Source: Muricea muricata (Eukaryota; Cnidaria; Anthozoa; Malacalcyonacea; Plexauridae). Taken from it: a stretch of DNA of 64,000 nt. Each line of letters starts with the position of its first letter. Within the stretch, counting starts at the first letter, position 1. The DNA lies in contig OY979726.1 of assembly GCA_963855995.1 (NCBI GenBank), positions 8,160,701 through 8,224,700 of the forward strand, in the 5' to 3' direction. A program made the position numbers and the translations under genes. Under the pieces are notes generated by a model. That model worked only from the letters and a program-made list of their open reading frames with translations. It was not told where the DNA came from and did no database searches. Below are positions 39,001-64,000 of the stretch, piece after piece.

Positions 39001-39879
39001 ATGATGTAAGAGCGTTTCTTTTCATTCTCAAAGCATGTTGTAGGTTTCTAATTTCAACATGATATTTTGCTGATGTCGATAGTTTGAGCGCCGAAAACAT
39101 GATGGCAGACTTCCTATAAGTTCTCCAATTTCGATATAGAAGCTGTCTTTTAGGTCCGCGATTGCAATATATCATTGGGCTCAACTGGTTCACTTTAGCA
39201 CTCAAAAACTCATTTTAAGCTCTAAAACGTCGCCGTGATCGATTTGAGACGGCAATTTTTAGTTGGCAGTCTGAGCATGTTTTTACGCTCAAGTCGCTTC
39301 CAGAACGCCTAAAACGCGATTTTCATGATTGTAAGAACGTTTCTTTTCAGTCTCAAAGCATGTTGTAGGTTTCTCATTTCAACATGCTATTTTGCTGATG
39401 TCGATAGTTTGAGCGCCGAAAACATGATGGCGGACATGCTAAGTTCTCTAATTTCGATTTAGAAGCTGTCTTGTAGGTACGCGATTGCAATATATTATTC
39501 TGCTCAACTCGTTCATTTTAGCACTCAAAAAATCATTTTAAGCTCTAAAACTTCGCCGTGATCGATTTGAGAAGGCAATTTTTAGTTGGCAGTCTGAGCA
39601 TGTTTTTACGCTCAAATCGCTTCCACAACATCTAAAACGTGATTTTGATGATTGTAAGAGCGTTTCTTTTCAGTCTCAATGATTGGTGTAGGTTTCTAAT
39701 TTCAACATGCTATTTTGCTGATGTCGATAGTTTGAGCGCCGAAAACGTGATTGCGGACTTGCTAAGTTCTCCAAGTTCGATTTAGAAGCTGTCTTTAAGG
39801 TCTGCGATTGCAATATATCATTCGGCTCAACTGGTATATTTTAGTACTCGAAACATCATTTTAAGCTCTAAAACGTCGC
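36001..39879 (+). repeat. Tandem 4-mer block, 1293 bp x 3
   Basis: CGTGATGGATTTGAG begins at 36001, 37294 and 38587, and the next unit would begin at 39880, where CGTGATCG appears instead. The three units of exactly 1293 bp are near-identical, including private marks (GATTTTCATGATTG, AAAACTTCGCCG, ATGATTGGTG, TCTTTAAGG). Together they make 3879 bp. The near-identity suggests recent amplification. At 39880 the array moves to the closely related monomers of the 10-mer family. Confidence 0.93.
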
Positions 39880-40755
39880 CGTGATCGATTTGAGACGGCG
39901 ATTTTTAGTTGGCAGTATGAGCATCTTTTTACGCTCAAATCGAGTCCAGAACGCCTAAAACACGATTTTGATTATTGTAAGAGCGTTTCTTTTCAGTTTC
40001 AAAGAGGGTTGTAGGTTTCTCATTTCAAAATGCTATTTTCATGATGTCGATAGTTTGAGCGCCGAAAACATGACTGCGGACTTGCTAAGTTCTCCAATTT
40101 CGATTTAGAAGCTGTCTTTTAGCTGCGCGATTGCAATATATCATTGGGCTCAACTCGTTCACTTTAGAACTCAAAACATCATTTTAAGCTCTAAAACGTC
40201 GGCGTGATCGATTTGAGACGGCAATTTTTAGTTGGCAGTCTGAGCATGTTTTTACGCTCAAATCGCTTCCAGATCGCTTAAAACTTGATTTTGATGATTG
40301 TAAGAGCGTTTCTTTTCAGTCTCAATGATTGTTGTAGGTTTCTAATTTCAACATGCTATTTTGCTGATGTCGATAGTTTGAGCGCCGAAAACATGATTGC
40401 GGACATGCTAAGTTCTCCAATTTCGATTTAGAAGCTGTCTTTTAGGTACGCGATTGCAATATATCATTGTGCTCAACTCGTTCATTTTAGACTCAAAATA
40501 TCATTTTAAGCTCTAAAACGTCGCCGTGATGGATTTGAGACGGATATTTTTAGTTGGCAGTCTGAGCATGTTTTTACGCTCAAATCGCTCCAGAACGTCT
40601 AAAACGCGATTTTGATGATTGTAATAGCGTTTCTTTTCATTCTCAAAGCATGTTGTAGGTTTCTCATTTCAAGATGCTATTTTGCTGATGTCGATAGTTT
40701 GATCGCCGGAAACATGATTGCGGACTTCCTATAAGTTCTCCAATTTCGATTTAGA

Positions 40756-40763
40756 AGACAGCT
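40756..40763. other. Micro-inversion allele AGACAGCT in unit U1
   Basis: Same inverted core as at 29450, in the fourth monomer of U1, followed by TTTTAAG. The spacing of 3228 bp to the next carrier equals the 10-mer period. Confidence 0.88.
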
Positions 40764-41808
40764 TTTAAGTACGCGATTGCAATATATTATTGTGCTCAAC
40801 TCGTTCATTTTAGCACTCAAAACATCATTTTAAGCTATAAAACGTCGCCGTGATCGATTTGAGACGGCAATTGTTAGTGTGCAGTCTGAACATGTTTTTA
40901 CGCTCAAATCACTTCCAGAACGCCTAAAACACGATTTTGATGACTGTAAGAGCGTTTCTTTTCATTCTCAAAGCATGTTGTAGGTTTCTAATTTCAACAT
41001 GCTATTTTGCTGATGTCGATAGTCTGAGCGCCGAAAACATGATTGCGGACTTGCTAAGTTCTCCAATTTCGATTTAGAAGCTGTCTTTTAGGTTCGTGAT
41101 TGCAATATATCATTGGGCTCAACTCGTTCATTTTAGCACTCAAAACATTATTTTTAAGCTCTAAAACGTCGCCGTGATCGATTTGAGACGGCAATTTTTA
41201 GTTGGCAGTCTGAGCATGTTTTTACGCTCAAATCGCTTCCAGAACGCCTAAAACGCGATTTTGATGATTGTAAGAGCGTTTCTTTTGAGTCTCAAAGCAT
41301 GTTGTAGGTTTCTCATTTCAACATGCTATTTTGCTGATGTCGGTAGTTTGAGCGCCGAAAACATGATTGCGGACATGCTAAGTTCTCTAATTTCGATTTA
41401 GAAGCTGTCTTTTAGGTACGCGATTGCAATATATTATTGTGCTCAACTCGTTCATTTTAGCACTCAAAACATCATTTTAAGCTCTAAAACGTCGCCGTGC
41501 TCGATTTGAGACGGCAATTTTTAGTTGGCAGTCCGAGCATGTTTTTACGCTCAACTCATTTCCAGAACGCCTAAAACGCGATTTTGATGATGTAAGAGCG
41601 TTTCTTTTCATTCTCAAAGCATGTTGTAGGTTTCTAATTTCAACATGATATTTTGCTGATGTCGATAGTTCGAGCGCCGAAAACATGATGGCAGACTTCC
41701 TATAAGTTCTCCAATTTCGATATAGAAGCTGTCTTTTAGGTCCGCGATTGCAATATATCATTGGGCTCAACTTGTCACTTTAGCACTCAAAAACTCATTT
41801 TAAGCTCT

Positions 41809-42774
41809 AAAACGTCGCCGTGATCGATTTGAGACGGCAATTTTTAGTTGGCAGTCTGAGCATGTTTTTACGCTCAAGTCGCTTCCAGAACGCCTAAAAC
41901 GCGATTTAATGATTGTAAGAACGTTTCTTTTCAGTCTCAAAGCATGTTGTAGGTTTCTCATTTCAACATGCTATTTTGCTGATGTCGATAGTTTGAGCGC
42001 CGAAAAAATGATGGCGGACATGCTAAGTTCTCTAATTTCGATTTAGAAGCTGTCTTGTAGGTACGCGATTGCAATATATTATTCTGCTCAACTCGTTCAT
42101 TTTAGCACTCAAAAAATCATTTTAAGCTCTAAAACGTCGCCGTGATCGATTTGAGACGGCACTTTTTAGTTGGCAGTCTGAGCATGTTTTTACGCTCAAG
42201 TCGCTTCCAGAACGCCTAAAACGCGATTTAATGATTGTAAGAACGTTTCTTTTCAGTCTCAAAGCATGTTGTAGGTTTCTCATTTCAACATGCTATTTTG
42301 CTGATGTCGATAGTTTGAGCGCCGAAAAAATGATGGCGGACATGCTAAGTTCTCTAATTTCGATTTAGAAGCTGTCTTGTAGGTACGCGATTGCAATATA
42401 TTATTCTGCTCAACTCGTTCATTTTAGCACTCAAAAAATCATTTTAAGCTCTAAAACGTCGCCGTGATCGATTTGAGACGGCACTTTTTAGTTGGCAGTC
42501 TGAGCATGTTTTTACGCTCAAGTCGCTTCCAGAACGCCTAAAACGCGATTTAATGATTGTAAGAACGTTTCTTTTCAGTCTCAAAGCATGTTGTAGGTTT
42601 CTCATTTCAACATGCTATTTTGCTAATGTCGATAGTTTGAGCGCCGAAAAAATGATGGCGGACATGCTAAGTTCTCTAATTTCGATTTAGAAGCTGTCTT
42701 GTAGGTACGCGATTGCAATATATTATTCTGCTCAACTCGTTCATTTTAGCACTCAAAAAATCATTTTAAGCTCT
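41809..42774 (+). repeat. Homogeneous monomer triplet, 322 bp x 3
   Basis: The stretch is exactly 966 bp. CGAAAAAATGATGG lies at 42001, 42323 and 42645, 322 bp apart. The 1-bp shortening comes from CGATTTAATG in place of CGATTTTGATG. The second and third copies also share GGCACTTTTTAG in place of GGCAATTTTTAG. Near-identity of neighbours marks this as one of the youngest events in the window. Confidence 0.92.
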
Positions 42775-43295
42775 AAAACTTCGCCGTGATCGATTTAAGA
42801 AGGCAATTTTTAGTTGGCAGTCTGAGCATGTTTTTACGCTCAAATCGCTTCCACAACATCTAAAACGTGATTTTGAGGATTGTAAGAGCGTTTCTTTTCA
42901 GTCTCAATGATTGTTGTAGGTTTCTAATTTCAACATGCTATTTTGCTGATGTCGATAGTTTGAGCGCCGAAAACGTGATTGCGGACTTGCTAAGTTCTCC
43001 AAGTTCGATTTAGAAGCTGTCTTTAAGGTCTGCGATTGCAATATATCATTCGGCTCAACTGGTATATTTTAGTACTCGAAACATCATTTTAAGCTCTAAA
43101 ACGTCGCCGTGATCGATTTGAGACGGCGATTTTTAGTTGGCAGTATGAGCATCTTTTTACGCTCAAATCGAGTCCAGAACGCCTAAAACACGATTTTGAT
43201 TAATGTAAGAGCGTTTCTTTTCAGTTTCAAAGAGGGTTGTAGGTTTCTCATTTCAAAATGCTATTTTCATGATGTCGATAGTTTGAGCGCCGAAA

Positions 43296-46200
43296 ACATG
43301 ACTGCGGACTTGCTAAGTTCTCCAATTTCGATTTAGAAGCTGTCTTTTAGCTGCGCGATTGCAATATATCATTGGGCTCAACTCGTTCACTTTAGAACTC
43401 AAAACATCATTTTAAGCTCTAAAACGTCGGCGTGATCGATTTGAGACGGCAATTTTTAGTTGGCAGTCTGAGCATGTTTTTACGCTCAAATCGCTTCCAG
43501 ATCGCTTAAAACTTGATTTTGATGATTGTAAGAGCGTTTCTTTTCAGTCTCAATGATTGTTGTAGGTTTCTAATTTCAACATGCTATTTTGCTGATGTCG
43601 ATAGTTTGAGCGCCGAAAACATGATTGCGGACATGCTAAGTTCTCCAATTTCGATTTAGAAGCTGTCTTTTAGGTACGCGATTGCAATATATCATTGTGC
43701 TCAACTCGTTCATTTTAGACTCAAAATATCATTTTAAGCTCTAAAACGTCGCCGTGATGGATTTGAGACGGATATTTTTAGTTGGCAGTCTGAGCATGTT
43801 TTTACGCTCAAATCGCTCCAGAACGTCTAAAACGCGATTTTGATGATTGTAATAGCGTTTCTTTTCATTCTCAAAGCATGTTGTAGGTTTCTCATTTCAA
43901 CATGCTATTTTGCTGATGTCGATAGTTTGATCGCCGGAAACATGATTGCGGACTTCCTATAAGTTCTCCAATTTCGATTTAGAAGACAGCTTTTAAGTAC
44001 GCGATTGCAATATATTATTGTGCTCAACTCGTTCATTTTAGCACTCAAAACATCATTTTAAGCTATAAAACGTCGCCGTGATCGATTTGAGACGGCAATT
44101 GTTAGTGTGCAGTCTGAACATGTTTTTACGCTCAAATCACTTCCAGAACGCCTAAAACACGATTTTGATGACTGTAAGAGCGTTTCTTTTCATTCTCAAA
44201 GCATGTTGTAGGTTTCTAATTTCAACATGCTATTTTGCTGATGTCGATAGTCTGAGCGCCGAAAACATGATTGCGGACTTGCTAAGTTCTCCAATTTCGA
44301 TTTAGAAGCTGTCTTTTAGGTTCGTGATTGCAATATATCATTGGGCTCAACTCGTTCATTTTAGCACTCAAAACATTATTTTTAAGCTCTAAAACGTCGC
44401 CGTGATCGATTTGAGACGGCAATTTTTAGTTGGCAGTCTGAGCATGTTTTTACGCTCAAATCGCTTCCAGAACGCCTAAAACGCGATTTTGATGATTGTA
44501 AGAGCGTTTCTTTTGAGTCTCAAAGCATGTTGTAGGTTTCTCATTTCAACATGCTATTTTGCTGATGTCGGTAGTTTGAGCGCCGAAAACATGATTGCGG
44601 ACATGCTAAGTTCTCTAATTTCGATTTAGAAGCTGTCTTTTAGGTACGCGATTGCAATATATTATTGTGCTCAACTCGTTCATTTTAGCACTCAAAACAT
44701 CATTTTAAGCTCTAAAACGTCGCCGTGCTCGATTTGAGACGGCAATTTTTAGTTGGCAGTCCGAGCATGTTTTTACGCTCAACTCATTTCCAGAACGCCT
44801 AAAACGCGATTTTGATGATGTAAGAGCGTTTCTTTTCATTCTCAAAGCATGTTGTAGGTTTCTAATTTCAACATGATATTTTGCTGATGTCGATAGTTCG
44901 AGCGCCGAAAACATGATGGCAGACTTCCTATAAGTTCTCCAATTTCGATATAGAAGCTGTCTTTTAGGTCCGCGATTGCAATATATCATTGGGCTCAACT
45001 GGTTCACTTTAGCACTCAAAAACTCATTTTAAAATCTAAAACGTCGCCGTGATCGATTTGAGACGGCAATTTTTAGTTGGCAGTCTGAGCATGTTTTTAC
45101 GCTCAAGTCGCTTCCAGAACGCCTAAAACGCGATTTAATGATTGTAAGAACGTTTCTTTTCAGTCTCAAAGCATGTTGTAGGTTTCTCATTTCAACATGC
45201 TATTTTGCTGATGTCGATAGTTTGAGCGCCGAAAAAATGATGGCGGACATGCTAAGTTCTCTAATTTCGATTTAGAAGCTGTCTTGTAGGTACGCGATTG
45301 CAATATATTATTCTGCTCAACTCGTTCATTTTAGCACTCAAAAAATCATTTTAAGCTCTAAAACGTCACCGTGATCGATTTGAGAAGGCAATTTTTAGTT
45401 GGCAGTCTGAGCATGTTTTTACGCTCAAATCGCTTCCACAACATCTAAAACGTGATTTTGATGATTGTAAGAGCGTTTCTTTTCAGTCTCAATGCATGTT
45501 GTAGGTTTCTTATTTCAACATGTTTTTTTCTGATGTCGGTAGTTTGAGCGCCGAAAACATGATTGCGGACTTCCTATAAGTTCTCTAATTTAAATATAGA
45601 AGCTGTCTTTTAGGTACGCGATTGCAATATATCATTTTGCTCAACTCGTTCTTTTTAGCACTTAAAAACTCATTTTAAGCTCTAAAACGTCGCCGTGATC
45701 GATTTGAGACGGCAATTTTTAGTTGGCAGTCCGAGCATGTTTTTACGCTCAAATCGCTTCCAGAACGCCTAAAACGCGATTTTGATGATTGTAAGAGCGT
45801 TTCTTTTCAGTGTCAAAGCATGTTGTAGGTTTCTCATTTCAACATGCTATTTTGCTGATGTCGATAGTTTGAGGCCGAAAACGTGATTGCGGACTTGCTA
45901 AGTTCTCCAATTTCGATTTAGACGCGGTCTTTTAGGTCCGCGATTGCAATATATCATTGGGCTCAACTCATTCATTTTAGCACTCAAAACATCATTTTAA
46001 GCTCTAAAACGTCGCCGTGATCGATTTGAGACGGCAATTTTTAGTTGGCAGTCCGAGCATGTTTTTACGCTCAAATCGCTTCCAGAACGCCTAAAACGCG
46101 ATTTTGATGATTGTAAGAGCGTTTCTTTTCAGTCTCAATGATTGTTGTAGGTTTCTAATTTCAACATGCTATTTTGCTGATGTCGATAGTTTGAGCGCCG

Positions 46201-46526
46201 AAAACGTGATTGCGGACTTGCTAAGTTCTCGAAGTTCGATTTAGAAGCTGTCTTTAAGGTCTGCGATTGCAATATATCATTCGGCTCAACTGGTATATTT
46301 TAGTACTCGAAACATCATTTTAAGCTCTAAAACGTCGCCGTGATCGATTTGAGACGGCGATTTTTAGTTGGCAGTATGAGCATCTTTTTACGCTCAAATC
46401 GAGTCCAGAACGCCTAAAACACGATTTTGATTATTGTAAGAGCGTTTCTTTTCAGTTTCAAAGAGGGTTGTAGGTTTCTCATTTCAAAATGCTATTTTCA
46501 TGATGTCGATAGTTTGAGCGCCGAAA
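43296..46526 (+). repeat. 10-mer higher-order repeat, unit U2 (3231 bp)
   Basis: The first six monomers match U1. The next four differ: one CGAAAAAATGATGG monomer, one with GTCACCGTG, ACAACATCTAAAACGTG and TTTTTTTCTGATGTCGG, one starting GAGGCCG with GACGCGGTC, and one with CTCGAAGTTCG and TCTTTAAGG. The monomer count is unchanged although the content is not. Confidence 0.88.
43984..43991. other. Micro-inversion allele AGACAGCT in unit U2
   Basis: Same inverted core, one 10-mer period (3228 bp) after the U1 copy. Confidence 0.88.
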
Positions 46527-49500
46527 ACATGACTGCGGACTTGCTAAGTTCTCCAATTTCGATTTAGAAGCTGTCTTTTAGCTGCGCGATTGCAATATAT
46601 CATTGGGCTCAACTCGTTCACTTTAGAACTCAAAACATCATTTTAAGCTCTAAAACGTCGGCGTGATCGATTTGAGACGGCAATTTTTAGTTGGCAGTCT
46701 GAGCATGTTTTTACGCTCAAATCGCTTCCAGATCGCTTAAAACTTGATTTTGATGATTGTAAGAGCGTTTCTTTTCAGTCTCAATGATTGTTGTAGGTTT
46801 CTAATTTCAACATGCTATTTTGCTGATGTCGATAGTTTGAGCGCCGAAAACATGATTGCGGACATGCTAAGTTCTCCAATTTCGATTTAGAAGCTGTCTT
46901 TTAGGTACGCGATTGCAATATATCATTGTGCTCAACTCGTTCATTTTAGACTCAAAATATCATTTTAAGCTCTAAAACGTCGCCGTGATGGATTTGAGAC
47001 GGATATTTTTAGTTGGCAGTCTGAGCATGTTTTTACGCTCAAATCGCTCCAGAACGTCTAAAACGCGATTTTGATGATTGTAATAGCGTTTCTTTTCATT
47101 CTCAAAGCATGTTGTAGGTTTCTCATTTCAACATGCTATTTTGCTGATGTCGATAGTTTGATCGCCGGAAACATGATTGCGGACTTCCTATAAGTTCTCC
47201 AATTTCGATTTAGAAGACAGCTTTTAAGTACGCGATTGCAATATATTATTGTGCTCAACTCGTTCATTTTAGCACTCAAAACATCATTTTAAGCTATAAA
47301 ACGTCGCCGTGATCGATTTGAGACGGCAATTGTTAGTGTGCAGTCTGAACATGTTTTTACGCTCAAATCACTTCCAGAACGCCTAAAACACGATTTTGAT
47401 GACTGTAAGAGCGTTTCTTTTCATTCTCAAAGCATGTTGTAGGTTTCTAATTTCAACATGCTATTTTGCTGATGTCGATAGTCTGAGCGCCGAAAACATG
47501 ATTGCGGACTTGCTAAGTTCTCCAATTTCGATTTAGAAGCTGTCTTTTAGGTTCGTGATTGCAATATATCATTGGGCTCAACTCGTTCATTTTAGCACTC
47601 AAAACATTATTTTTAAGCTCTAAAACGTCGCCGTGATCGATTTGAGACGGCAATTTTTAGTTGGCAGTCTGAGCATGTTTTTACGCTGAAATCGCTTCCA
47701 GAACGCCTAAAACGCGATTTTGATGATTGTAAGAGCGTTTCTTTTGAGTCTCAAAGCATGTTGTAGGTTTCTCATTTCAACATGCTATTTTGCTGATGTC
47801 GGTAGTTTGAGCGCCGAAAACATGATTGCGGACATGCTAAGTTCTCTAATTTCGATTTAGAAGCTGTCTTTTAGGTACGCGATTGCAATATATTATTGTG
47901 CTCAACTCGTTCATTTTAGCACTCAAAACATCATTTTAAGCTCTAAAACGTCGCCGTGCTCGATTTGAGACGGCAATTTTTAGTTGGCAGTCCGAGCATG
48001 TTTTTACGCTCAACTCATTTCCAGAACGCCTAAAACGCGATTTTGATGATGTAAGAGCGTTTCTTTTCATTCTCAAAGCATGTTGTAGGTTTCTAATTTC
48101 AACATGATATTTTGCTGATGTCGATAGTTCGAGCGCCGAAAACATGATGGCAGACTTCCTATAAGTTCTCCAATTTCGATATAGAAGCTGTCTTTTAGGT
48201 CCGCGATTGCAATATATCATTGGGCTCAACTGGTTCACTTTAGCACTCAAAAACTCATTTTAAGCTCTAAAACGTCGCCGTGATCGATTTGAGACGGCAA
48301 TTTTTAGTTGGCAGTCTGAGCATGTTTTTACGCTCAAGTCGCTTCCAGAACGCCTAAAACGCGATTTAATGATTGTAAGAACGTTTCTTTTCAGTCTCAA
48401 AGCATGTTGTAGGTTTCTCATTTCAACATGCTATTTTGCTGATGTCGATAGTTTGAGCGCCGAAAAAATGATGGCGGACATGCTAAGTTCTCTAATTTCG
48501 ATTTAGAAGCTGTCTTGTAGGTACGCGATTGCAATATATTATTCTGCTCAACTCGTTCATTTTAGCACTCAAAAAATCATTTTAAGCTCTAAAACGTCAC
48601 CGTGATCGATTTGAGAAGGCAATTTTTAGTTGGCAGTCTGAGCATGTTTTTACGCTCAAATCGCTTCCACAACATCTAAAACGTGATTTTGATGATTGTA
48701 AGAGCGTTTCTTTTCAGTCTCAATGCATGTTGTAGGTTTCTTATTTCAACATGTTTTTTTCTGATGTCGGTAGTTTGAGCGCCGAAAACATGATTGCGGA
48801 CTTCCTATAAGTTCTCTAATTTAAATATAGAAGCTGTCTTTTAGGTACGCGATTGCAATATATCATTTTGCTCAACTCGTTCTTTTTAGCACTCAAAAAC
48901 TCATTTTAAGCTCTAAAACGTCGCCGTGATCGATTTGAGACGGCAATTTTTAGTTGGCAGTCCGAGCATGTTTTTACGCTCAAATCGCTTCCAGAACGCC
49001 TAAAACGCGATTTTGATGATTGTAAGAGCGTTTCTTTTCAGTGTCAAAGCATGTTGTAGGTTTCTCATTTCAACATGCTATTTTGCTGATGTCGATAGTT
49101 TGAGCGCCGAAAAAATGATGGCGGACATGCTAAGTTCTCTAATTTCGATTTAGAAGCTGTCTTGTAGGTACGCGATTGCAATATATTATTCTGCTCAACT
49201 CGTTCATTTTAGCACTCAAAAAATCATTTTAAGCTCTAAAACGTCACCGTGATCGATTTGAGAAGGCAATTTTTAGTTGGCAGTCTGAGCATGTTTTTAC
49301 GCTCAAATCGCTTCCACAACATCTAAAACGTGATTTTGATGATTGTAAGAGCGTTTCTTTTCAGTCTCAATGCATGTTGTAGGTTTCTTATTTCAACATG
49401 TTTTTTTCTGATGTCGGTAGTTTGAGCGCCGAAAACATGATTGCGGACTTCCTATAAGTTCTCTAATTTAAATATAGAAGCTGTCTTTTAGGTACGCGAT

Positions 49501-50404
49501 TGCAATATATCATTTTGCTCAACTCGTTCTTTTTAGCACTTAAAAACTCATTTTAAGCTCTAAAACGTCGCCGTGATCGATTTGAGACGGCAATTTTTAG
49601 TTGGCAGTCCGAGCATGTTTTTACGCTCAAATCGCTTCCAGAACGCCTAAAACGCGATTTTGATGATTGTAAGAGCGTTTCTTTTCAGTGTCAAAGCATG
49701 TTGTAGGTTTCTCATTTCAACATGCTATTTTGCTGATGTCGATAGTTTGAGGCCGAAAACGTGATTGCGGACTTGCTAAGTTCTCCAATTTCGATTTAGA
49801 CGCGGTCTTTTAGGTCCGCGATTGCAATATATCATTGGGCTCAACTCATTCATTTTAGCACTCAAAACATCATTTTAAGCTCTAAAACGTCGCCGTGATC
49901 GATTTGAGACGGCAATTTTTAGTTGGCAGTCCGAGCATGTTTTTACGCTCAAATCGCTTCCAGAACGCCTAAAACGCGATTTTGATGATTGTAAGAGCGT
50001 TTCTTTTCAGTCTCAATGATTGTTGTAGGTTTCTAATTTCAACATGCTATTTTGCTGATGTCGATAGTTTGAGCGCCGAAAACGTGATTGCGGACTTGCT
50101 AAGTTCTCGAAGTTCGATTTAGAAGCTGTCTTTAAGGTCTGCGATTGCAATATATCATTCGGCTCAACTGGTATATTTTAGTACTCGAAACATCATTTTA
50201 AGCTCTAAAACGTCGCCGTGATCGATTTGAGACGGCGATTTTTAGTTGGCAGTATGAGCATCTTTTTACGCTCAAATCGAGTCCAGAACGCCTAAAACAC
50301 GATTTTGATTATTGTAAGAGCGTTTCTTTTCAGTTTCAAAGAGGGTTGTAGGTTTCTCATTTCAAAATGCTATTTTCATGATGTCGATAGTTTGAGCGCC
50401 GAAA
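46527..50404 (+). repeat. 12-mer derivative, unit U3 (3878 bp)
   Basis: It equals U2 plus one extra pair of monomers. CGAAAAAATGATGG lies at 48461 and 49108, 647 bp apart, so the pair (AAAAAATG monomer plus TTTTTTTCTG monomer) is present twice. The joint lies in the hairpin segment between about 49043 and 49103, where a tail with CAGTGTC is joined to a head with GAAAAAATG. Confidence 0.9.
47215..47222. other. Micro-inversion allele AGACAGCT in unit U3
   Basis: Same inverted core, 3231 bp after the U2 copy. Confidence 0.88.
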
Positions 50405-53400
50405 ACATGACTGCGGACTTGCTAAGTTCTCCAATTTCGATTTAGAAGCTGTCTTTTAGCTGCGCGATTGCAATATATCATTGGGCTCAACTCGTTCACT
50501 TTAGAACTCAAAACATCATTTTAAGCTCTAAAACGTCGGCGTGATCGATTTGAGACGGCAATTTTTAGTTGGCAGTCTGAGCATGTTTTTACGCTCAAAT
50601 CGCTTCCAGATCGCTTAAAACTTGATTTTGATGATTGTAAGAGCGTTTCTTTTCAGTCTCAATGATTGTTGTAGGTTTCTAATTTCAACATGCTATTTTG
50701 CTGATGTCGATAGTTTGAGCGCCGAAAACATGATTGCGGACATGCTAAGTTCTCCAATTTCGATTTAGAAGCTGTCTTTTAGGTACGCGATTGCAATATA
50801 TCATTGTGCTCAACTCGTTCATTTTAGACTCAAAATATCATTTTAAGCTCTAAAACGTCGCCGTGATGGATTTGAGACGGATATTTTTAGTTGGCAGTCT
50901 GAGCATGTTTTTACGCTCAAATCGCTCCAGAACGTCTAAAACGCGATTTTGATGATTGTAATAGCGTTTCTTTTCATTCTCAAAGCATGTTGTAGGTTTC
51001 TCATTTCAACATGCTATTTTGCTGATGTCGATAGTTTGATCGCCGGAAACATGATTGCGGACTTCCTATAAGTTCTCCAATTTCGATTTAGAAGACAGCT
51101 TTTAAGTACGCGATTGCAATATATTATTGTGCTCAACTCGTTCATTTTAGCACTCAAAACATCATTTTAAGCTATAAAACGTCGCCGTGATCGATTTGAG
51201 ACGGCAATTGTTAGTGTGCAGTCTGAACATGTTTTTACGCTCAAATCACTTCCAGAACGCCTAAAACACGATTTTGATGACTGTAAGAGCGTTTCTTTTC
51301 ATTCTCAAAGCATGTTGTAGGTTTCTAATTTCAACATGCTATTTTGCTGATGTCGATAGTCTGAGCGCCGAAAACATGATTGCGGACTTGCTAAGTTCTC
51401 CAATTTCGATTTAGAAGCTGTCTTTTAGGTTCGTGATTGCAATATATCATTGGGCTCAACTCGTTCATTTTAGCACTCAAAACATTATTTTTAAGCTCTA
51501 AAACGTCGCCGTGATCGATTTGAGACGGCAATTTTTAGTTGGCAGTCTGAGCATGTTTTTACGCTGAAATCGCTTCCAGAACGCCTAAAACGCGATTTTG
51601 ATGATTGTAAGAGCGTTTCTTTTGAGTCTCAAAGCATGTTGTAGGTTTCTCATTTCAACATGCTATTTTGCTGATGTCGGTAGTTTGAGCGCCGAAAACA
51701 TGATTGCGGACATGCTAAGTTCTCTAATTTCGATTTAGAAGCTGTCTTTTAGGTACGCGATTGCAATATATTATTGTGCTCAACTCGTTCATTTTAGCAC
51801 TCAAAACATCATTTTAAGCTCTAAAACGTCGCCGTGCTCGATTTGAGACGGCAATTTTTAGTTGGCAGTCCGAGCATGTTTTTACGCTCAACTCATTTCC
51901 AGAACGCCTAAAACGCGATTTTGATGATGTAAGAGCGTTTCTTTTCATTCTCAAAGCATGTTGTAGGTTTCTAATTTCAACATGATATTTTGCTGATGTC
52001 GATAGTTCGAGCGCCGAAAACATGATGGCAGACTTCCTATAAGTTCTCCAATTTCGATATAGAAGCTGTCTTTTAGGTCCGCGATTGCAATATATCATTG
52101 GGCTCAACTGGTTCACTTTAGCACTCAAAAACTCATTTTAAGCTCTAAAACGTCGCCGTGATCGATTTGAGACGGCAATTTTTAGTTGGCAGTCTGAGCA
52201 TGTTTTTACGCTCAAGTCGCTTCCAGAACGCCTAAAACGCGATTTAATGATTGTAAGAACGTTTCTTTTCAGTCTCAAAGCATGTTGTAGGTTTCTCATT
52301 TCAACATGCTATTTTGCTGATGTCGATAGTTTGAGCGCCGAAAAAATGATGGCGGACATGCTAAGTTCTCTAATTTCGATTTAGAAGCTGTCTTGTAGGT
52401 ACGCGATTGCAATATATTATTCTGCTCAACTCGTTCATTTTAGCACTCAAAAAATCATTTTAAGCTCTAAAACGTCACCGTGATCGATTTGAGAAGGCAA
52501 TTTTTAGTTGGCAGTCTGAGCATGTTTTTACGCTCAAATCGCTTCCACAACATCTAAAACGTGATTTTGATGATTGTAAGAGCGTTTCTTTTCAGTCTCA
52601 ATGCATGTTGTAGGTTTCTTATTTCAACATGTTTTTTTCTGATGTCGGTAGTTTGAGCGCCGAAAACATGATTGCGGACTTCCTATAAGTTCTCTAATTT
52701 AAATATAGAAGCTGTCTTTTAGGTACGCGATTGCAATATATCATTTTGCTCAACTCGTTCTTTTTAGCACTCAAAAACTCATTTTAAGCTCTAAAACGTC
52801 GCCGTGATCGATTTGAGACGGCAATTTTTAGTTGGCAGTCCGAGCATGTTTTTACGCTCAAATCGCTTCCAGAACGCCTAAAACGCGATTTTGATGATTG
52901 TAAGAGCGTTTCTTTTCAGTGTCAAAGCATGTTGTAGGTTTCTCATTTCAACATGCTATTTTGCTGATGTCGATAGTTTGAGCGCCGAAAAAATGATGGC
53001 GGACATGCTAAGTTCTCTAATTTCGATTTAGAAGCTGTCTTGTAGGTACGCGATTGCAATATATTATTCTGCTCAACTCGTTCATTTTAGCACTCAAAAA
53101 ATCATTTTAAGCTCTAAAACGTCACCGTGATCGATTTGAGAAGGCAATTTTTAGTTGGCAGTCTGAGCATGTTTTTACGCTCAAATCGCTTCCACAACAT
53201 CTAAAACGTGATTTTGATGATTGTAAGAGCGTTTCTTTTCAGTCTCAATGCATGTTGTAGGTTTCTTATTTCAACATGTTTTTTTCTGATGTCGGTAGTT
53301 TGAGCGCCGAAAACATGATTGCGGACTTCCTATAAGTTCTCTAATTTAAATATAGAAGCTGTCTTTTAGGTACGCGATTGCAATATATCATTTTGCTCAA

Positions 53401-53880
53401 CTCGTTCTTTTTAGCACTCAAAAACTCATTTTAAGCTCTAAAACGTCGCCGTGATCGATTTGAGACGGCAATTTTTAGTTGGCAGTCCGAGCATGTTTTT
53501 ACGCTCAAATCGCTTCCAGAACGCCTAAAACGCGATTTTGATGATTGTAAGAGCGTTTCTTTTCAGTGTCAAAGCATGTTGTAGGTTTCTCATTTCAACA
53601 TGCTATTTTGCTGATGTCGATAGTTTGAGGCCGAAAACGTGATTGCGGACTTGCTAAGTTCTCCAATTTCGATTTAGACGCGGTCTTTTAGGTCCGCGAT
53701 TGCAATATATCATTGGGCTCAACTCATTCATTTTAGCACTCAAAACATCATTTTAAGCTCTAAAACGTCGCCGTGATCGATTTGAGACGGCAATTTTTAG
53801 TTGGCAGTCCGAGCATGTTTTTACGCTCAAATCGCTTCCAGAACGCCTAAAACGCGATTTTGATGATTGTAAGAGCGTTT
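50405..53880 (+). repeat. 12-mer derivative, unit U4 (interrupted by change to near-consensus monomers)
   Basis: It follows U3 monomer by monomer, including the doubled pair (CGAAAAAATGATGG at 52339 and 52986, again 647 bp apart). After the GAGGCCG / GACGCGGTC monomer, the expected ATGATTGTTG tail is replaced near 53880 by a CAGTGTCAATGC tail, where the near-consensus domain begins. Confidence 0.88.
51093..51100. other. Micro-inversion allele AGACAGCT in unit U4
   Basis: Same inverted core, 3878 bp after the U3 copy, the 12-mer period. The 22-mer copy 2 does not include this monomer, because its homology to U4 starts about 450 bp downstream. Confidence 0.88.
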
Positions 53881-56800
53881 CTTTTCAGTGTCAATGCATG
53901 TTGTAGGTTTCTCATTTCAACATGCTATTTTGCTGATGTCGATAGTTTGAGCGCCGAAAACGTGATTGCGGACTTGCTAAGTTCTCCAATTTCGATTTAG
54001 AAGCTGTCTTTTAGGTCCGCGATTGCAATATATCATTGGGCTCAACTCGTTCATTTTAGCACTCAAAACATCATTTTAAGCTCTAAAACGTCGCCATGAT
54101 CGATTTGAGACGGCAATTATTGTTGGCAGTCCGAGCATTTTTTTACGCTCAAATCGCTTCGAGAACGCCTAAAACGCGATTTTGATTATTTTAAGAGCGT
54201 TTCTTTTCAGTCTCAATGCACGTTGTAGGTTTCTAATTTCAACATGCTATTTTGCTGATGTCGATAGTTTGAGCGCCGAAAACATGATTGCGGACATGCT
54301 AAGTTCTCCAATTTCGATTTAGAAGCTGTCTTTTAGATACGCGATTGCAATATATCATTGTGCTCAACTCGTTCTTTTTAGCACTCAAAACATCATTTTA
54401 AGCTCTAAAACGTCGCCGTGATCGATTTGAGACGGATATTTTTAGTTGGCAGTCTGAGCATGTTTTTACGCTCAAATCGCTTCGAGAACGCCTAAAACGC
54501 GATTTTGATGATTGTAAGAACGTTTCTTTTCAGTCTCAAAGCATGTTGTAAGTTTCTCATTTCAACATGCTATTTTGCTGATGTCGATAGTTTGAGCGCA
54601 GAAAACATGATTGCGGACATGCTAAGTTCTTCAATTTCGATTTAGAAGCTATCTTTTAGGTACGCGATTGCAATATATTATTCTGCTCAACTCGTTCATT
54701 TTAGCACTCAAAACATCATTTTAAGCTATAAAACGTCGCCGCGATCGATTTGAGACGGCAATTTTTAGTTGGCAGTCCGAGCATGTTTTTACGCTCAAAT
54801 CGCTTCCAGAACGCCTAAAACGCGATTTTGATGATTGTAAGAACGTTTCTTTTCAGTCTCAAAGCATGTTGTAGGTTTCTCATTTCAACATGCTATTTTG
54901 CTGATGTCGATAGTTTGAGCGCCGAAAACGTGATTGCGGACTTGCTAAGTTCTCCAATTTCTATTTAGAAGCTGTCTTTTAGGTCCGCGCTTGCAATATA
55001 TCATTGGGCTCAACTCGTTCATTTTAGCACTCAAAAATTCATTTTAAGCTCTAAAACGTCGCAGTGATCGATTTGAGACGGATATTTTTAGTTGGCAGTC
55101 CGAGCATGTTTTTACGCTCAAATCGCTTCCAGAATGCCTAAAACGCGATTTTGATGATTGTAAGAACGTTTCTTTTCAGTCTCAAAGCATGTTGTAGGTT
55201 TCTAATTTCAACATGCTATTTTACTGATGTCGATAGTTTGAGCGCCGAAAACGTGATTGTTGACTTGCTAAGTTCTCCAATTTCGATTTAGAAACTGTCT
55301 TTTAGGTCCGCGATTGCAATATATCATTGGGCTCAACTCGTTCATTTTAGCACTCAAAACATCATTTTAAGCTCTAAAACGTCGCCGTGATCGATTTGAG
55401 ACGGATATTTTTAGTTGGCAGTCCGAGCATGTTTTTACGCTCAAATCGCTTCCAGAACGCCTAAAACGCGATTTTGATGATTGTAAGAACGTTTCTTTTC
55501 AGTCTCAAAGCATGTTGTAGGTTTCTCATTTCAACATGCTATTTTGCTGATGTCGATAGTTTGAGCGCCGAAAACGTGATTGCGGACTTGCTAAGTTCTC
55601 CAATTTCGATTTAGAAGCTGTCTTTTAGGTCCGCGATTGCAATATATCATTGGGCTCAACTTGTTCATTTTAGCACTCAAAACATCATTTTAAGCTCTAA
55701 AACGTCGCCGTGATCGATTTGAGACGGCAATTTTTAGTTGGCAGTCCGAGCATGTTTTTACGCTCAAATCGCTTCCAGAACGCCTAAAACGCGATTTTGA
55801 TGATTGTAAGAACATTTCTTTTCAGTCTCAAAGCATGTTGTAGGTTTCTCATTTCAACATGCTATTTTGCTGATGTCGATAGTTTGAGCGCCGAAAACGT
55901 GATTGCGGACTTGCTAAGTTCTCCAATTTCGATTTAGAAACTGTCTTTTAGGTCCGCGATTGCAATATATCATTGGGCTCAACTCGTTCATTTTAGCACT
56001 CAAAACATCATTTTAAGCTCTAAAACGTCGCCGTGATCGATTTGAGACGGCAATTTTTAGTTGGCAGTCCGAGCATGTTTTTACGCTCAAATCGCTTCCA
56101 GAACGCCTAAAACGCGATTTTGATGATTGTAAGAGCGTTTCTTTTCAGTGTCAATGCATGTTGTAGGTTTCTCATTTCAACATTCTATTTATCTGATGTC
56201 CATAGTTTGAGCGGCGAAAACGTGATTGCGGACTTGCTAAGTTCTCCAATTTCGATTTAGAAGCTGTCTTTCAGGTCCGCGATTGCAATATATCATTGGG
56301 CTCAACTCGTTCATTTTAGCACTCAAAACATCATTTTAAGCTCTAAAACGTCGCCGTGATCGATTTGAGACGGCAGTTTTTAGTTGGCAGTCCGAGCATG
56401 TTTTTACGTTCAAATCGCTTCCAAAACGCCTAAAACGCGATTTTGATGATTGTAAGAGCGTTTCTTTTCAGTGTCAATGCATGTTGTAGGTTTCTCATTT
56501 CAACATGCTATTTTGCTGATGTCGATAGTTTGAGCGCAGAAAACATGATTGCGGACATGCTAAGTTCTTCAATTTCGATTTAGAAGCTATCTTTTAGGTA
56601 CGCGATTGCAATATATTATTCTGCTCAACTCGTTCATTTTAGCACTCAAAATATCATTTTAAGCTATAAAACGTTGCCGCGATCGATTTGAGACGGCAAT
56701 TTTTAGTTGGCAGTCCGAGCATGTTTTTACTCTCAAATCGCTTCCAGAACGCCTAAAACGCGATTTTGATGATTGTAAGAGCGTTTCTTTTCAGTGTAAT

Positions 56801-58070
56801 GCATGTTGTAGGTTTCTCATTTCAACATGCTATTTTGCTGATGTCGATAGTTTGAGCGCCGAAAACGTGATTGCGGACTTGCTAAGTTCTCCAATTTCGA
56901 TTTAGAAGCTGTCTTTTAGATACGCGATTGCAATATATCATTGTGCTCAACTCGTTCTTTTTAGCACTCAAAACATCATTTTAAGCTCTAAAACGTCGCC
57001 GTGATCGATTTGAGACGGATATTTTTAGTTTGCAGTCTGAGCATGTTTTTACGCTCAAGTCGCTTCGAGAACGCCTAAAACGGGATTTTGATGATTGTAA
57101 GAACGTTTCTTTTCAGTCTCAAAGCATGTTGTAAGTTTCTCATTTCAACATGCTATTTTGCTGATGTCGATAGTTTGAGCGCTGAAAACGTGATTGCGGA
57201 CTTGCTAAGTTCTCTAATTTCGATTTAGAAGCTGTCTTTTAGGTCCGCGATTGCAATACATCATTGGGCTCAACTCGTTCATTTTAGCACTCAAAACATC
57301 ATTTTAAGCTCTAAAACGTCGCCGTGATCGATTTGAGACGGCAATTTTTAGTTGGAAGTCCGAGCATGTTTTTACGCTCAAATCGCTTCCAGAACGCCTA
57401 AAACGCAATTTTGATGATTGTAAGAGCGTTTCTTTTCAGTGTCAATGCATGTTGTAGGTTTCTCATTTCAACATTCTATTTATCTGATGTCGATAGTTTG
57501 AGTGCCAAAAACGTGATTGCGGACTTGCTAAGTTCTCCAATTTCGATTTAGAAGCTGTCTTTTAGGTCCGCGATTGCAATATATCATTGGGCTCAACTCG
57601 TTCATTTTAGCACTCAAAACATCATTTTAAGCTCTAAAACGTCGCCGTGATCGATTTGAGACGGCAATTTTTAGTTGGCAGTCCGAGCATGTTTTTACGC
57701 TCAAATCGCTTCCAGAACGCCTAAAACGCGATTTTGATGATTGTAAGAGCGTTTCTTGTCAGTCTCAATGCATGCTGTAGGTTTCTTATTTCAACATGTT
57801 TTTTTCTGATGTCGATAGTTTGAGCGCCGAAAACATGATTGCGGACTTCCTATAAGTTCTCCAATTTAAATATAGAAGCTGTCTTTTAGGTACGCGATTG
57901 CAATATATCATTGTGCCCAACTCGTTCTTTTTAGCACTCAAAAACTCATTTTAAGCTCTAAAACGTCGCCGTGATCAATTTGAGACGGATATTTTTAGTT
58001 GGCAGTCTGAGCATGTTTTTACGCTCAAATCGCTTCCACAACGCCTAAAACGCGATTTTGATGATTGTAA
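53881..58070 (+). repeat. Near-consensus domain E
   Basis: About 13 monomers with the fewest subfamily marks in the window. Internal echoes exist: the GAGCGCAGAAAAC / GCTATCTTTTAGG / CGCCGCGATCG monomer at 54594 and 56532 (1938 bp, six monomers apart) and TTTATCTG heads at about 56191 and 57482 (four monomers apart). The domain is repeated from about 60960 to the end of the window. Confidence 0.83.
55571..55893 (+). repeat. Reference monomer (near consensus), internally a trimer of a ~108-bp element
   Basis: This monomer differs from my eye-built consensus at three positions. An AAAAC landmark falls at 55571, 55679, 55786 and again at 55894, spacings of 108, 107 and 108 bp, one third of the monomer each. 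Writing the three thirds (T1 55571-55678, T2 55679-55785, T3 55786-55893) under each other without gaps gives, by hand count on the consensus, T1/T2 53 of 107, T2/T3 46 of 107 and T1/T3 58 of 108 matches, where base composition predicts about 26%. Shared positions include AAAAC at 1-5, AT at 9-10, CGATTT at 37-42 (T1, T2), and GCT-n-A-nn-TCG at 84-93 in all three. The 323-bp unit therefore looks like an ancient higher-order repeat that became the new monomer. Confidence 0.85.
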
Positions 58071-59301
58071 GAACGTTTCTTTTAAGTCTCAAAGCATGCT
58101 GTAAGTTTCTCATTTCAACATGCTATTTTGCTGATGTCGATAGTTTGACCGCCGAAAACATGATAAGCCTTGCTAAGTTCTAGAATTTCGATTTAGAAGC
58201 TGTCTTTTAGGTCTGCGATTGCAATATCTCATTGGGCTCAACTCGTTCACTTTAGCACTCAAAACATCATTTTAAGCCCTAAAACGTCGCCGTGATCGAT
58301 TTGAGTCGGAAATTTTTAGTTGGCAGTCTGAGTATGTTTTTACGCTCAAATCGCTTCCAGATCGCTTAAAACGCGATTTTGATGATTGTAAAAGCGTTTC
58401 TTTTCATTCTCAAAGCATGTTGTAGGTTTCTAATTTCAACATGCTATTTTGCTGATGTCGATAGTTTGAGCGCCGAAAACATGATTGCGGACTTCCTATA
58501 AGTTCTCCAATTTCGATTTAGAAGCTGTCTTTTAGGACCGCGATTGCCAAAATATCATTGTGCTCAAGTCGTTCTTTTTAGCACTCAAAACATCATTTTA
58601 AGCTCTAAAACGTCGCCGTGATCTATTTGAGACGGCAATTTTTAGTTGGCAGTCTGAGCATGTTTTTACGCTCAAATCGCTTCCAGAACGCCTAAAACGT
58701 GATTTTGATGATTGTAAGAGCGTATCTTTTCAGTCTCAATGCATGTTGTAGGTTTCTTATTTCAACATTCTATTTTGTTGATGTCGATAGTTTAAGCGCC
58801 GAAAACATGATTGCGGACTTCCTATAAGTTCTCCAATTTCGATATAGAAGCTGTCTTTTAGGTCCGCGATTGCAATATATCATTGGGCTCAACTCGTTCA
58901 CTTCAGCACTCAAAAACTCATTTTAAGCTCTAAAACGTTGCCGTGATCGATTTGAGAAGGCGATTTTTAGTTGGCAGTCTGAGCATGTTTTTACGCTGAA
59001 ATCGCTTCCACAACGCCTAAAACGTGATTTTTATGATTGTAAGAGCGTTTCTTTTCAGTCTCAATGCATGTTGTAGGTTTCTTATTTCAACATGCTATTT
59101 TGCTGATGTGGATAGTTTGAGCGCCGAAAACATGATTGCGGACTTCCTATAAGTTTTCCAATTTCGATATAGAAGCTGTCTTTTAGGTACGCGATTGCAA
59201 TAAATCATTGTGCTCAACTCGTTCTTTTTAGTACTCAAAACATCATTTTAAGCTCTAAAACGTCGCCGTGATCGATTTGAGACGGCAATTTTTAGTTGGC
59301 A
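58070..59301 (+). repeat. Diverged domain B cassette (fourth copy)
   Basis: The B order appears once more: TTTTAAGTCTC, TTGACCGCCG with GATAAGCC (one base different from GATCAGCC), GTCGGAAATTTTTAG with CTGAGTATG, GGACCGCG at 58535 and GTGATCTATTTG. It is shorter than B and differs from all other cassettes at several sites. It closes the first 22-mer unit. Confidence 0.78.
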
Positions 59302-62300
59302 GTCCGAGCATGTTTTTACGCTGAAATCGCTTCCAGAACGCCTAAAACGCGATTTTGATGATTGTAAGAGCGTTTCTTTTGAGTCTCAAAGCATGTTGTA
59401 GGTTTCTCATTTCAACATGCTATTTTGCTGATGTCGGTAGTTTGAGCGCCGAAAACATGATTGCGGACATGCTAAGTTCTCTAATTTCGATTTAGAAGCT
59501 GTCTTTTAGGTACGCGATTGCAATATATTATTGTGCTCAACTCGTTCATTTTAGCACTCAAAACATCATTTTAAGCTCTAAAACGTCGCCGTGCTCGATT
59601 TGAGACGGCAATTTTTAGTTGGCAGTCCGAGCATGTTTTTACGCTCAACTCATTTCCAGAACGCCTAAAACGCGATTTTGATGATGTAAGAGCGTTTCTT
59701 TTCATTCTCAAAGCATGTTGTAGGTTTCTAATTTCAACATGATATTTTGCTGATGTCGATAGTTCGAGCGCCGAAAACATGATGGCAGACTTCCTATAAG
59801 TTCTCCAATTTCGATATAGAAGCTGTCTTTTAGGTCCGCGATTGCAATATATCATTGGGCTCAACTGGTTCACTTTAGCACTCAAAAACTCATTTTAAGC
59901 TCTAAAACGTCGCCGTGATCGATTTGAGACGGCAATTTTTAGTTGGCAGTCTGAGCATGTTTTTACGCTCAAGTCGCTTCCAGAACGCCTAAAACGCGAT
60001 TTAATGATTGTAAGAACGTTTCTTTTCAGTCTCAAAGCATGTTGTAGGTTTCTCATTTCAACATGCTATTTTGCTGATGTCGATAGTTTGAGCGCCGAAA
60101 AAATGATGGCGGACATGCTAAGTTCTCTAATTTCGATTTAGAAGCTGTCTTGTAGGTACGCGATTGCAATATATTATTCTGCTCAACTCGTTCATTTTAG
60201 CACTCAAAAAATCATTTTAAGCTCTAAAACGTCACCGTGATCGATTTGAGAAGGCAATTTTTAGTTGGCAGTCTGAGCATGTTTTTACGCTCAAATCGCT
60301 TCCACAACATCTAAAACGTGATTTTGATGATTGTAAGAGCGTTTCTTTTCAGTCTCAATGCATGTTGTAGGTTTCTTATTTCAACATGTTTTTTTCTGAT
60401 GTCGGTAGTTTGAGCGCCGAAAACATGATTGCGGACTTCCTATAAGTTCTCTAATTTAAATATAGAAGCTGTCTTTTAGGTACGCGATTGCAATATATCA
60501 TTTTGCTCAACTCGTTCTTTTTAGCACTCAAAAACTCATTTTAAGCTCTAAAACGTCGCCGTGATCGATTTGAGACGGCAATTTTTAGTTGGCAGTCCGA
60601 GCATGTTTTTACGCTCAAATCGCTTCCAGAACGCCTAAAACGCGATTTTGATGATTGTAAGAGCGTTTCTTTTCAGTGTCAAAGCATGTTGTAGGTTTCT
60701 CATTTCAACATGCTATTTTGCTGATGTCGATAGTTTGAGGCCGAAAACGTGATTGCGGACTTGCTAAGTTCTCCAATTTCGATTTAGACGCGGTCTTTTA
60801 GGTCCGCGATTGCAATATATCATTGGGCTCAACTCATTCATTTTAGCACTCAAAACATCATTTTAAGCTCTAAAACGTCGCCGTGATCGATTTGAGACGG
60901 CAATTTTTAGTTGGCAGTCCGAGCATGTTTTTACGCTCAAATCGCTTCCAGAACGCCTAAAACGCGATTTTGATGATTGTAAGAGCGTTTCTTTTCAGTG
61001 TCAATGCATGTTGTAGGTTTCTCATTTCAACATGCTATTTTGCTGATGTCGATAGTTTGAGCGCCGAAAACGTGATTGCGGACTTGCTAAGTTCTCCAAT
61101 TTCGATTTAGAAGCTGTCTTTTAGGTCCGCGATTGCAATATATCATTGGGCTCAACTCGTTCATTTTAGCACTCAAAACATCATTTTAAGCTCTAAAACG
61201 TCGCCATGATCGATTTGAGACGGCAATTATTGTTGGCAGTCCGAGCATTTTTTTACGCTCAAATCGCTTCGAGAACGCCTAAAACGCGATTTTGATTATT
61301 TTAAGAGCGTTTCTTTTCAGTCTCAATGCACGTTGTAGGTTTCTAATTTCAACATGCTATTTTGCTGATGTCGATAGTTTGAGCGCCGAAAACATGATTG
61401 CGGACATGCTAAGTTCTCCAATTTCGATTTAGAAGCTGTCTTTTAGATACGCGATTGCAATATATCATTGTGCTCAACTCGTTCTTTTTAGCACTCAAAA
61501 CATCATTTTAAGCTCTAAAACGTCGCCGTGATCGATTTGAGACGGATATTTTTAGTTGGCAGTCTGAGCATGTTTTTACGCTCAAATCGCTTCGAGAACG
61601 CCTAAAACGCGATTTTGATGATTGTAAGAACGTTTCTTTTCAGTCTCAAAGCATGTTGTAAGTTTCTCATTTCAACATGCTATTTTGCTGATGTCGATAG
61701 TTTGAGCGCAGAAAACATGATTGCGGACATGCTAAGTTCTTCAATTTCGATTTAGAAGCTATCTTTTAGGTACGCGATTGCAATATATTATTCTGCTCAA
61801 CTCGTTCATTTTAGCACTCAAAACATCATTTTAAGCTATAAAACGTCGCCGCGATCGATTTGAGACCGCAATTTTTAGTTGGCAGTCCGAGCATGTTTTT
61901 ACGCTCAAATCGCTTCCAGAACGCCTAAAACGCGATTTTGATGATTGTAAGAACGTTTCTTTTCAGTCTCAAAGCATGTTGTAGGTTTCTCATTTCAACA
62001 TGCTATTTTGCTGATGTCGATAGTTTGAGCGCCGAAAACGTGATTGCGGACTTGCTAAGTTCTCCAATTTCTATTTAGAAGCTGTCTTTTAGGTCCGCGC
62101 TTGCAATATATCATTGGGCTCAACTCGTTCATTTTAGCACTCAAAAATTCATTTTAAGCTCTAAAACGTCGCAGTGATCGATTTGAGACGGATATTTTTA
62201 GTTGGCAGTCCGAGCATGTTTTTACGCTCAAATCGCTTCCAGAATGCCTAAAACGCGATTTTGATGATTGTAAGAACGTTTCTTTTCAGTCTCAAAGCAT

Positions 62301-64000
62301 GTTGTAGGTTTCTAATTTCAACATGCTATTTTACTGATGTCGATAGTTTGAGCGCCGAAAACGTGATTGTTGACTTGCTAAGTTCTCCAATTTCGATTTA
62401 GAAGCTGTCTTTTAGGTCCGCGATTGCAATATATCATTGGGCTCAACTCGTTCATTTTAGCACTCAAAACATCATTTTAAGCTCTAAAACGTCGCCGTGA
62501 TCGATTTGAGACGGATATTTTTAGTTGGCAGTCCGAGCATGTTTTTACGCTCAAATCGCTTCCAGAACGCCTAAAACGCGATTTTGATGATTGTAAGAAC
62601 GTTTCTTTTCAGTCTCAAAGCATGTTGTAGGTTTCTCATTTCAACATGCTATTTTGCTGATGTCGATAGTTTGAGCGCCGAAAACGTGATTGCGGACTTG
62701 CTAAGTTCTCCAATTTCGATTTAGAAGCTGTCTTTTAGGTCCGCGATTGCAATATATCATTGGGCTCAACTTGTTCATTTTAGCACTCAAAACATCATTT
62801 TAAGCTCTAAAACGTCGCCGTGATCGATTTGAGACGGCAATTTTTAGTTGGCAGTCCGAGCATGTTTTTACGCTCAAATCGCTTCCAGAACGCCTAAAAC
62901 GCGATTTTGATGATTGTAAGAACATTTCTTTTCAGTCTCAAAGCATGTTGTAGGTTTCTCATTTCAACATGCTATTTTGCTGATGTCGATAGTTTGAGCG
63001 CCGAAAACGTGATTGCGGACTTGCTAAGTTCTCCAATTTCGATTTAGAAACTGTCTTTTAGGTCCGCGATTGCAATATATCATTGGGCTCAACTCGTTCA
63101 TTTTAGCACTCAAAACATCATTTTAAGCTCTAAAACGTCGCCGTGATCGATTTGAGACGGCAATTTTTAGTTGGCAGTCCGAGCATGTTTTTACGCTCAA
63201 ATCGCTTCCAGAACGCCTAAAACGCGATTTTGATGATTGTAAGAGCGTTTCTTTTCAGTGTCAATGCATGTTGTAGGTTTCTCATTTCAACATTCTATTT
63301 ATCTGATGTCCATAGTTTGAGCGGCGAAAACGTGATTGCGGACTTGCTAAGTTCTCCAATTTCGATTTAGAAGCTGTCTTTCAGGTCCGCGATTGCAATA
63401 TATCATTGGGCTCAACTCGTTCATTTTAGCACTCAAAACATCATTTTAAGCTCTAAAACGTCGCCGTGATCGATTTGAGACGGCAGTTTTTAGTTGGCAG
63501 TCCGAGCATGTTTTTACGTTCAAATCGCTTCCAAAACGCCTAAAACGCGATTTTGATGATTGTAAGAGCGTTTCTTTTCAGTGTCAATGCATGTTGTAGG
63601 TTTCTCATTTCAACATGCTATTTTGCTGATGTCGATAGTTTGAGCGCAGAAAACATGATTGCGGACATGCTAAGTTCTTCAATTTCGATTTAGAAGCTAT
63701 CTTTTAGGTACGCGATTGCAATATATTATTCTGCTCAACTCGTTCATTTTAGCACTCAAAATATCATTTTAAGCTATAAAACGTTGCCGCGATCGATTTG
63801 AGACGGCAATTTTTAGTTGGCAGTCCGAGCATGTTTTTACTCTCAAATCGCTTCCAGAACGCCTAAAACGCGATTTTGATGATTGTAAGAGCGTTTCTTT
63901 TCAGTGTAATGCATGTTGTAGGTTTCTCATTTCAACATGCTATTTTGCTGATGTCGATAGTTTGAGCGCCGAAAACGTGATTGCGGACTTGCTAAGTTCT
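59302..64000 (+). repeat. 22-mer higher-order repeat, copy 2 (cut by window end)
   Basis: It repeats 51545 onward with one copy of the monomer pair instead of two. Small differences include GAGACCGCAATTT near 61862. The last base of the window corresponds to about 56890, so the remaining part of domain E and the B cassette should follow if the unit is complete. Confidence 0.88.

Follow-up and report, generated by a model that had tools for sequence, protein, structure and literature searches.

Satellite repeats often hold sub-repeats that stem from earlier duplications, and a review describes the centromeric satellites of mouse, tilapia and sparids as having grown from a 9-nt unit through repeated duplication (PMC5615363). 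The 343-bp alpha satellite of New World monkeys is presented as a promoted dimer of a 171-bp unit (PMC4053949). Cervid satellite I consists of 18-21 subrepeats of 31 bp, and subrepeats taken from a given position of the monomer are reported to resemble one another more closely between species than do those inside one monomer (PMC7835801). The promotion of multi-unit blocks is already on record for satellites of the mouse, fish, ruminants and primates (PMC5615363, PMC7835801, PMC4053949).

The array described here, from the cnidarian Muricea muricata, appears to work like these satellites with other numbers. Successive rounds of duplication and divergence, one nested in the next, would have shaped it as they did the satellites of mouse, tilapia and sparids, with a basic unit of 9 nt there and about 21.5 bp here (PMC5615363). 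Like the New World monkey 343-bp satellite, whose halves are only weakly alike, it would owe its unit to a block of diverged monomers; unlike that satellite, a dimer whose ancestral unit persists in relatives, it is a trimer (PMC4053949). Bovid and cervid satellite I shares with it a long monomer of short decayed subrepeats, and the positional likeness among those subrepeats parallels that among the thirds reported below; the subrepeats there are 31 bp long and number 18-21, whereas we find 15 sub-units of about 21.5 bp in a 3 x 5 hierarchy (PMC7835801). We recognised no published description of this 323-bp satellite in the portion of the open-access literature covered.

The window, by which we mean the whole stretch of 64,000 nucleotides analysed, is filled end to end by the array, which continues past both edges and leaves no non-array sequence inside. 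Tandem Repeats Finder (TRF) counted 198.2 copies of 323 bp with 91% matches, and this long head-to-tail run of near-identical 323-bp units is satellite DNA. A 323-bp consensus was built from 195 monomers: 197 anchors gave 196 intervals, one of which, 646 bp long and starting at 29082, was excluded. That interval spans two complete monomers, which align to the consensus with 310 and 298 matches. The second of them (29405-29727, 298 aligned matches to the 323-bp consensus) was missed by the first anchor and has local changes near its positions 44-58. Averaged over columns, the consensus base has a frequency of 95.1% among the 195 monomers, and monomers 1 to 119 places apart are on average 91.7% identical. 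The coordinates of the features are collected in Table 1.

Table 1. Repeat features of the 64-kb window, by position in the window
Feature	Position	Strand	Details	Basis
Satellite array	1..64000	.	323-bp unit	Tandem Repeats Finder and anchor spacing
Third 1 of hidden trimer	55571..55678	+	108 bp	Landmarks, alignment
Third 2 of hidden trimer	55679..55785	+	107 bp	Landmarks, alignment
Third 3 of hidden trimer	55786..55893	+	108 bp	Landmarks, alignment
15 decayed sub-units of ~21.5 bp	55581..55893	+	Majority unit TTTTAGCTCTCAAATCGCGATT; fitted starts at consensus positions 11, 35, 53, 77, 98, 119, 141, 162, 185, 205, 228, 249, 268, 290, 313	Lags, comb, profile fits
Two sub-units as 21-bp tandem	7550..7589	+	85% matches; monomer positions 98-136	TRF
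Copies of the 7550..7589 tandem	25303-25342, 35316-35355			TRF
2.4 sub-units as 21-bp tandem	6051..6101	+	76% matches; monomer positions 214-264	TRF
Copy of the 6051..6101 tandem	23804-23854			TRF
4-monomer block	35863..39740	+	About three copies (run of 8 monomers at lag 4); end approximate	
13-monomer block	13267..21660	+	Two tandem copies (13 monomers in a row at lag 13, 99.9%); end approximate	
30-monomer block	29..27470	+	From 29, recurring from 17784 (lag 55, 99.9%); copies of ~9.7 kb at 29-9720 and 17784-27470, ends approximate; longest run in the window	

An earlier note had read the monomer at 55571-55893 as a hidden trimer of an ancestral repeat of about 108 bp, and our analyses support the trimer by pair counts, three-way columns, shuffles, the consensus and the raw window alike. 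The motif AAAAC cuts this monomer into 108, 107 and 108 bp as described, CGATTT stands at 1-based offset 37 of thirds 1 and 2, and GCTnAnnTCG stands at offset 84 of all three. The ungapped matches between thirds are real, with counts of 52/107, 45/107 and 57/108, each one below the 53, 46 and 58 reported previously; the consensus of 195 monomers gives 54/107, 47/107 and 57/108. AAAAC does mark the starts of the thirds without being confined to them, the consensus having four copies, at 1, 109, 129 and 216. The extra copy at 129 lies 20 bp past that at 109, roughly one sub-unit of about 21 bp.

The landmarks had been picked visually, and the monomer contains a fourth AAAAC; one might suspect that the 108-bp signal, and with it the 21.5-bp signal described below, is an accident of an AT-rich, dinucleotide-biased sequence. 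The shuffle check that the note had proposed refutes this for lag 108, and chance or composition has a negligible probability as an account of the two signals. The consensus matches itself at 148 of 323 positions (45.8%) at lag 108, and none of 10,000 shuffles (5,000 dinucleotide and 5,000 mononucleotide) equalled this value, either at lags 107-108, where they had a mean of about 89 and a maximum of 117 matches, or at any lag from 10 to 161, where the maximum was 129. The signal was not lost in the consensus, the second check put forward; it rose from 40.6% in the raw window, where lag 108 is the best lag below 323 (mean of 26.6% over lags 20-299). All three thirds carry the same letter at 36 of 107 columns; 20,000 shuffles averaged 7.8 such columns and never exceeded 19. 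Single monomers tell the same story, lag 108 being the best of lags 10-159 in 133 of 195, with a mean identity of 40.8% (range 32.7-47.4%) at the best of lags 106-109. The internal units are thus significantly alike at a fixed spacing in a consensus of many monomers, as expected of a monomer derived from a former multi-unit block. We also considered a dimer of about 161 bp and rejected it: lags 161 and 162 give 74/323 matches, under the shuffle mean of about 89 for lags 107-108.

The 108-bp unit is real; it is not the lowest level, as the description of it as ancestral had implied. Our analysis shows that it bears traces of five repeats of about 21.5 bp, which survive shuffles that preserve the trimer. 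The consensus has raised lags at 21, 43, 64, 87, 127-128 and 151 (99 to 113 matches), and its three strongest Fourier harmonics are 45, 15 and 30, corresponding to 323/15 = 21.53 bp and its fractions. Because the trimer by itself favours harmonics divisible by three, we shuffled whole columns of the three-way alignment, a procedure that leaves the lag-108 identity intact. The 21.53-bp comb (harmonics 15, 30 and 45) had a value of 10.99, compared with a mean of 3.54 and a maximum of 9.13 in these trimer-preserving shuffles (0/5,000), and they did not reach 10.99 at any of the 16 three-divisible fundamentals tried (0/5,000). Identity was also summed over the remaining multiples of 21.5, taking the best lag within about 1-2 bp of each; the total was 649, above the maximum of 636 in 5,000 such shuffles.

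A profile of 15 units, fitted by an identical search to the consensus and to 200 trimer-preserving shuffles, reached 10.94 bits on the consensus, with a mean of 8.69 and a maximum of 10.10 in the shuffles. Sub-units at different places within thirds were 38.6% identical in this fit, against a shuffle maximum of 36.9%. A broader phase search gave 11.49 bits and the majority unit TTTTAGCTCTCAAATCGCGATT, whose sequence is soft, since the fit permits shifts of up to 2 bp and uneven steps (18-24 bp); the phase and steps of the lattice are likewise approximate. The window position of each sub-unit start is its consensus position plus 55570, assuming no indel, and the unit starting at 313 crosses into the next monomer. 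With a score threshold of 50, TRF reports five 21-bp tandems of 2.0-2.4 copies (scores 58-59), each of which repeats one of two sites in the monomer, at positions 98-136 and 214-264.

Several observations weigh against the level of about 21.5 bp. Harmonic 15 by itself is less extreme, being equalled in 32 of 5,000 trimer-preserving shuffles. Off the lattice, lag 68 scores 111, level with lag 21, and the fourth-ranked harmonic is 51 (6.33 bp), which is no multiple of 15. Inside single thirds, a 21.6-bp comb was equalled by 328, 37 and 11 of 5,000 shuffles for thirds 1, 2 and 3, so that third 1 is weak for this signal by itself. On a separate question, a palindromic 108-bp unit was not established: the best reverse-complement self-match scores 122/323, a value that 297 of 3,000 plain shuffles and 669 of 3,000 trimer-preserving ones reach. 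Reverse-complement lattices of 21.5 bp (reached by 28 of 3,000 trimer-preserving shuffles) and 10.77 bp (26 of 3,000) probably follow from the phasing of A and T.

This phasing brings in another explanation, which accepts the 108-bp trimer as ancestral and takes the 21.5-bp lattice for two helix turns, maintained or created by selection for phased A/T tracts that serve curvature or rotational nucleosome placement. AA/TT dinucleotides peak at 10.77 bp (power 11.27) and 9.79 bp, and their power in the 9.8-11.1 band was equalled by 1 of 2,000 shuffles (18 of 2,000 for all W-W dinucleotides); the weak/strong string also peaks at 10.77 bp, and A clusters at one phase with T half a unit on. Moreover, the three-way identical columns are more constant among monomers, at 97.4% versus about 94.4% (other classes 93.0-95.7%), a difference equalled by 70 of 10,000 within-base permutations, in a test in which gaps are ignored and the monomers are not independent because of block duplication. 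In a separate count of column constancy, the values for columns 1-2 come out too low, since MAFFT shifted 44 monomers by 2 bp at the anchor. This higher constancy could reflect either lasting constraint or low mutability. It has a bolder reading, in which the three-way identical positions are a two-helix-turn, 21.5-bp phasing code still kept by selection, with 108 and 323 bp constrained to multiples of a helical lattice; we regard that reading as quite improbable.

Several results speak against the helical explanation as the whole cause, and we hold it to be unlikely. When the letters were permuted within the fixed weak/strong string, the comb was equalled in 0 of 3,000 trials (maximum 8.02, against 10.99), and permuting A/T identity alone or G/C identity alone also cut it, with 6 and 15 of 3,000 equalling the observed value. 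A peak at 21.53 bp, not at 10.77, is seen for the A+C versus G+T string and for T alone, A alone peaks at 7.18, and phased curvature by itself needs no two-turn repeat. Phased A/T tracts could nonetheless contribute, the AA/TT rhythm being near the helical repeat, and the shape of the DNA may account for some of the 21.5-bp signal. The same phasing may, in its own right, bear on nucleosome placement or curvature.

The decayed repeats of about 21.5 bp can be tentatively placed relative to the trimer. On the consensus, lag 108 (148 matches) far exceeds the other multiples of 21.5 (99 to 113). Sub-units at the same place across thirds (15 pairs) are 44.4% identical in the wider fit and 49.8% in the even fit used with the 200 shuffles, and the remaining 90 pairs 38.9% and 38.6%. 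Given that lag 108 dominates and that same-place sub-units are more alike, the simplest history would be one in which five sub-units made the 108-bp unit before it tripled. The contrast between same-place and other pairs merely restates the trimer, as trimer-preserving shuffles under the same fit show it too (mean 44.9% versus 33.0%).

The current behaviour of the array is quite different from this older record, and the 108-bp register looks silent now within the window. Anchors in the second and third thirds each found 198 sites, and for each of them all 197 spacings lie within 320-326 bp, so no monomer in the window gained or lost a third; spacings departing by a third of a unit numbered 0 of 197. 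For the first third, the opening 60 bases of the consensus served as anchor and located 186 sites; the sites it missed account for 12 double spacings (646-647 bp), and one spacing was 318 bp. Ongoing exchange between thirds is likewise unsupported: 60 minor alleles occur in 10 or more of the 195 monomers and lie in columns at which another third has a different base, and 27 of these 60 agree with another third, where 27 were expected.

Exchange today works at 323 bp and above. The blocks at lags of 4, 10, 13 and 22 monomers that had been pointed out before are real, and they are joined by further lags, 12, 42, 53 and 55 among others. We searched for runs of monomers at 98% identity or more; the 25 longest have mean identities of 98.9-100%, and the longest extend over 30 monomers at lag 55, 15 at lag 12 and 13 at lag 13. 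The first 12 monomers of the 30-monomer block match at lag 42 as well. Judged by run length, most of the blocks resemble duplicated segments present two or three times, at changing lags. A regular alpha-like higher-order repeat was not found in the 64-kb window, where runs occur at many shifting lags.

Taken together, these results make it probable that the satellite unit was reset upward at least twice, from about 21.5 bp to 108 bp and then to 323 bp, followed by multi-monomer duplications. A unit of about 21-22 bp would first have been tandemly repeated, five diverged copies (108 bp) would then have been promoted to a new unit, three diverged 108-bp units (323 bp) would have been promoted to the present one, and multi-monomer blocks of 323-bp units would now be duplicating in turn. 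Ordinary unequal exchange, replication slippage or re-insertion from circles would most likely have driven this, working in whatever register had the highest identity; once the thirds had fallen to about 50% identity they would have stopped recombining in the 108-bp register, and homogenisation would thereby have been locked at 323 bp. A single process may lie behind every repeat level, as the earlier note had proposed.

Another possibility would be that the 323-bp unit arrived whole, from a transposable element or spacer that already held the 108-bp and 21-bp repeats, and turned into a satellite afterwards. Plant satellites of such origin are reported (PMC7004042), and the internal repeats could, on the present data, be older than the first amplification. 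An ORF of at least 120 aa with an ATG, GTG or TTG start is absent from the window, which is in this sense non-coding, and Rfam gave 0 matches in the 2,000 bases searched (55001-57000); these results carry little weight either way, as does the fact that the window has no sequence beyond the array. We consider an arrival in one piece improbable, and stepwise promotion of ever larger units remains our preferred reading.

Searches of sequence collections gave no match by blastn in its 'distant' setting (646 bases against plasmid and phage collections) and none for exact 20-22-mers against genome_contigs (prokaryotic) and viral_contigs. A free-standing 21-bp or 108-bp array was found in none of the prokaryotic, plasmid, phage and viral collections scanned, which, being prokaryotic or viral, say little about eukaryotes.

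From the kind of sequence alone, a structural role may be supposed, possibly centromeric or heterochromatic. The 15-base core of the CENP-B box has no exact match in the window, which sets this array apart from CENP-B-box satellites. TTCGATTTAGACGCG, one mismatch away from that core, occurs at 45912, 49790, 53668 and 60778, and these four one-mismatch matches are fewer than the 7.6 expected in shuffles. The window also shows an excess of CpG (observed/expected 1.51) and a depletion of TpA (0.61). This composition is unlike that of a heavily CpG-methylated, decayed satellite, and we would guess that the source genome is lightly methylated.

To conclude, this array is of note chiefly because it lets one read three older unit lengths (about 21.5, 108 and 323 bp) together with one recent multi-monomer level. 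Our results suggest that the older register is now silent, which fits the idea that divergence among sub-units fixes the unit size of a satellite.
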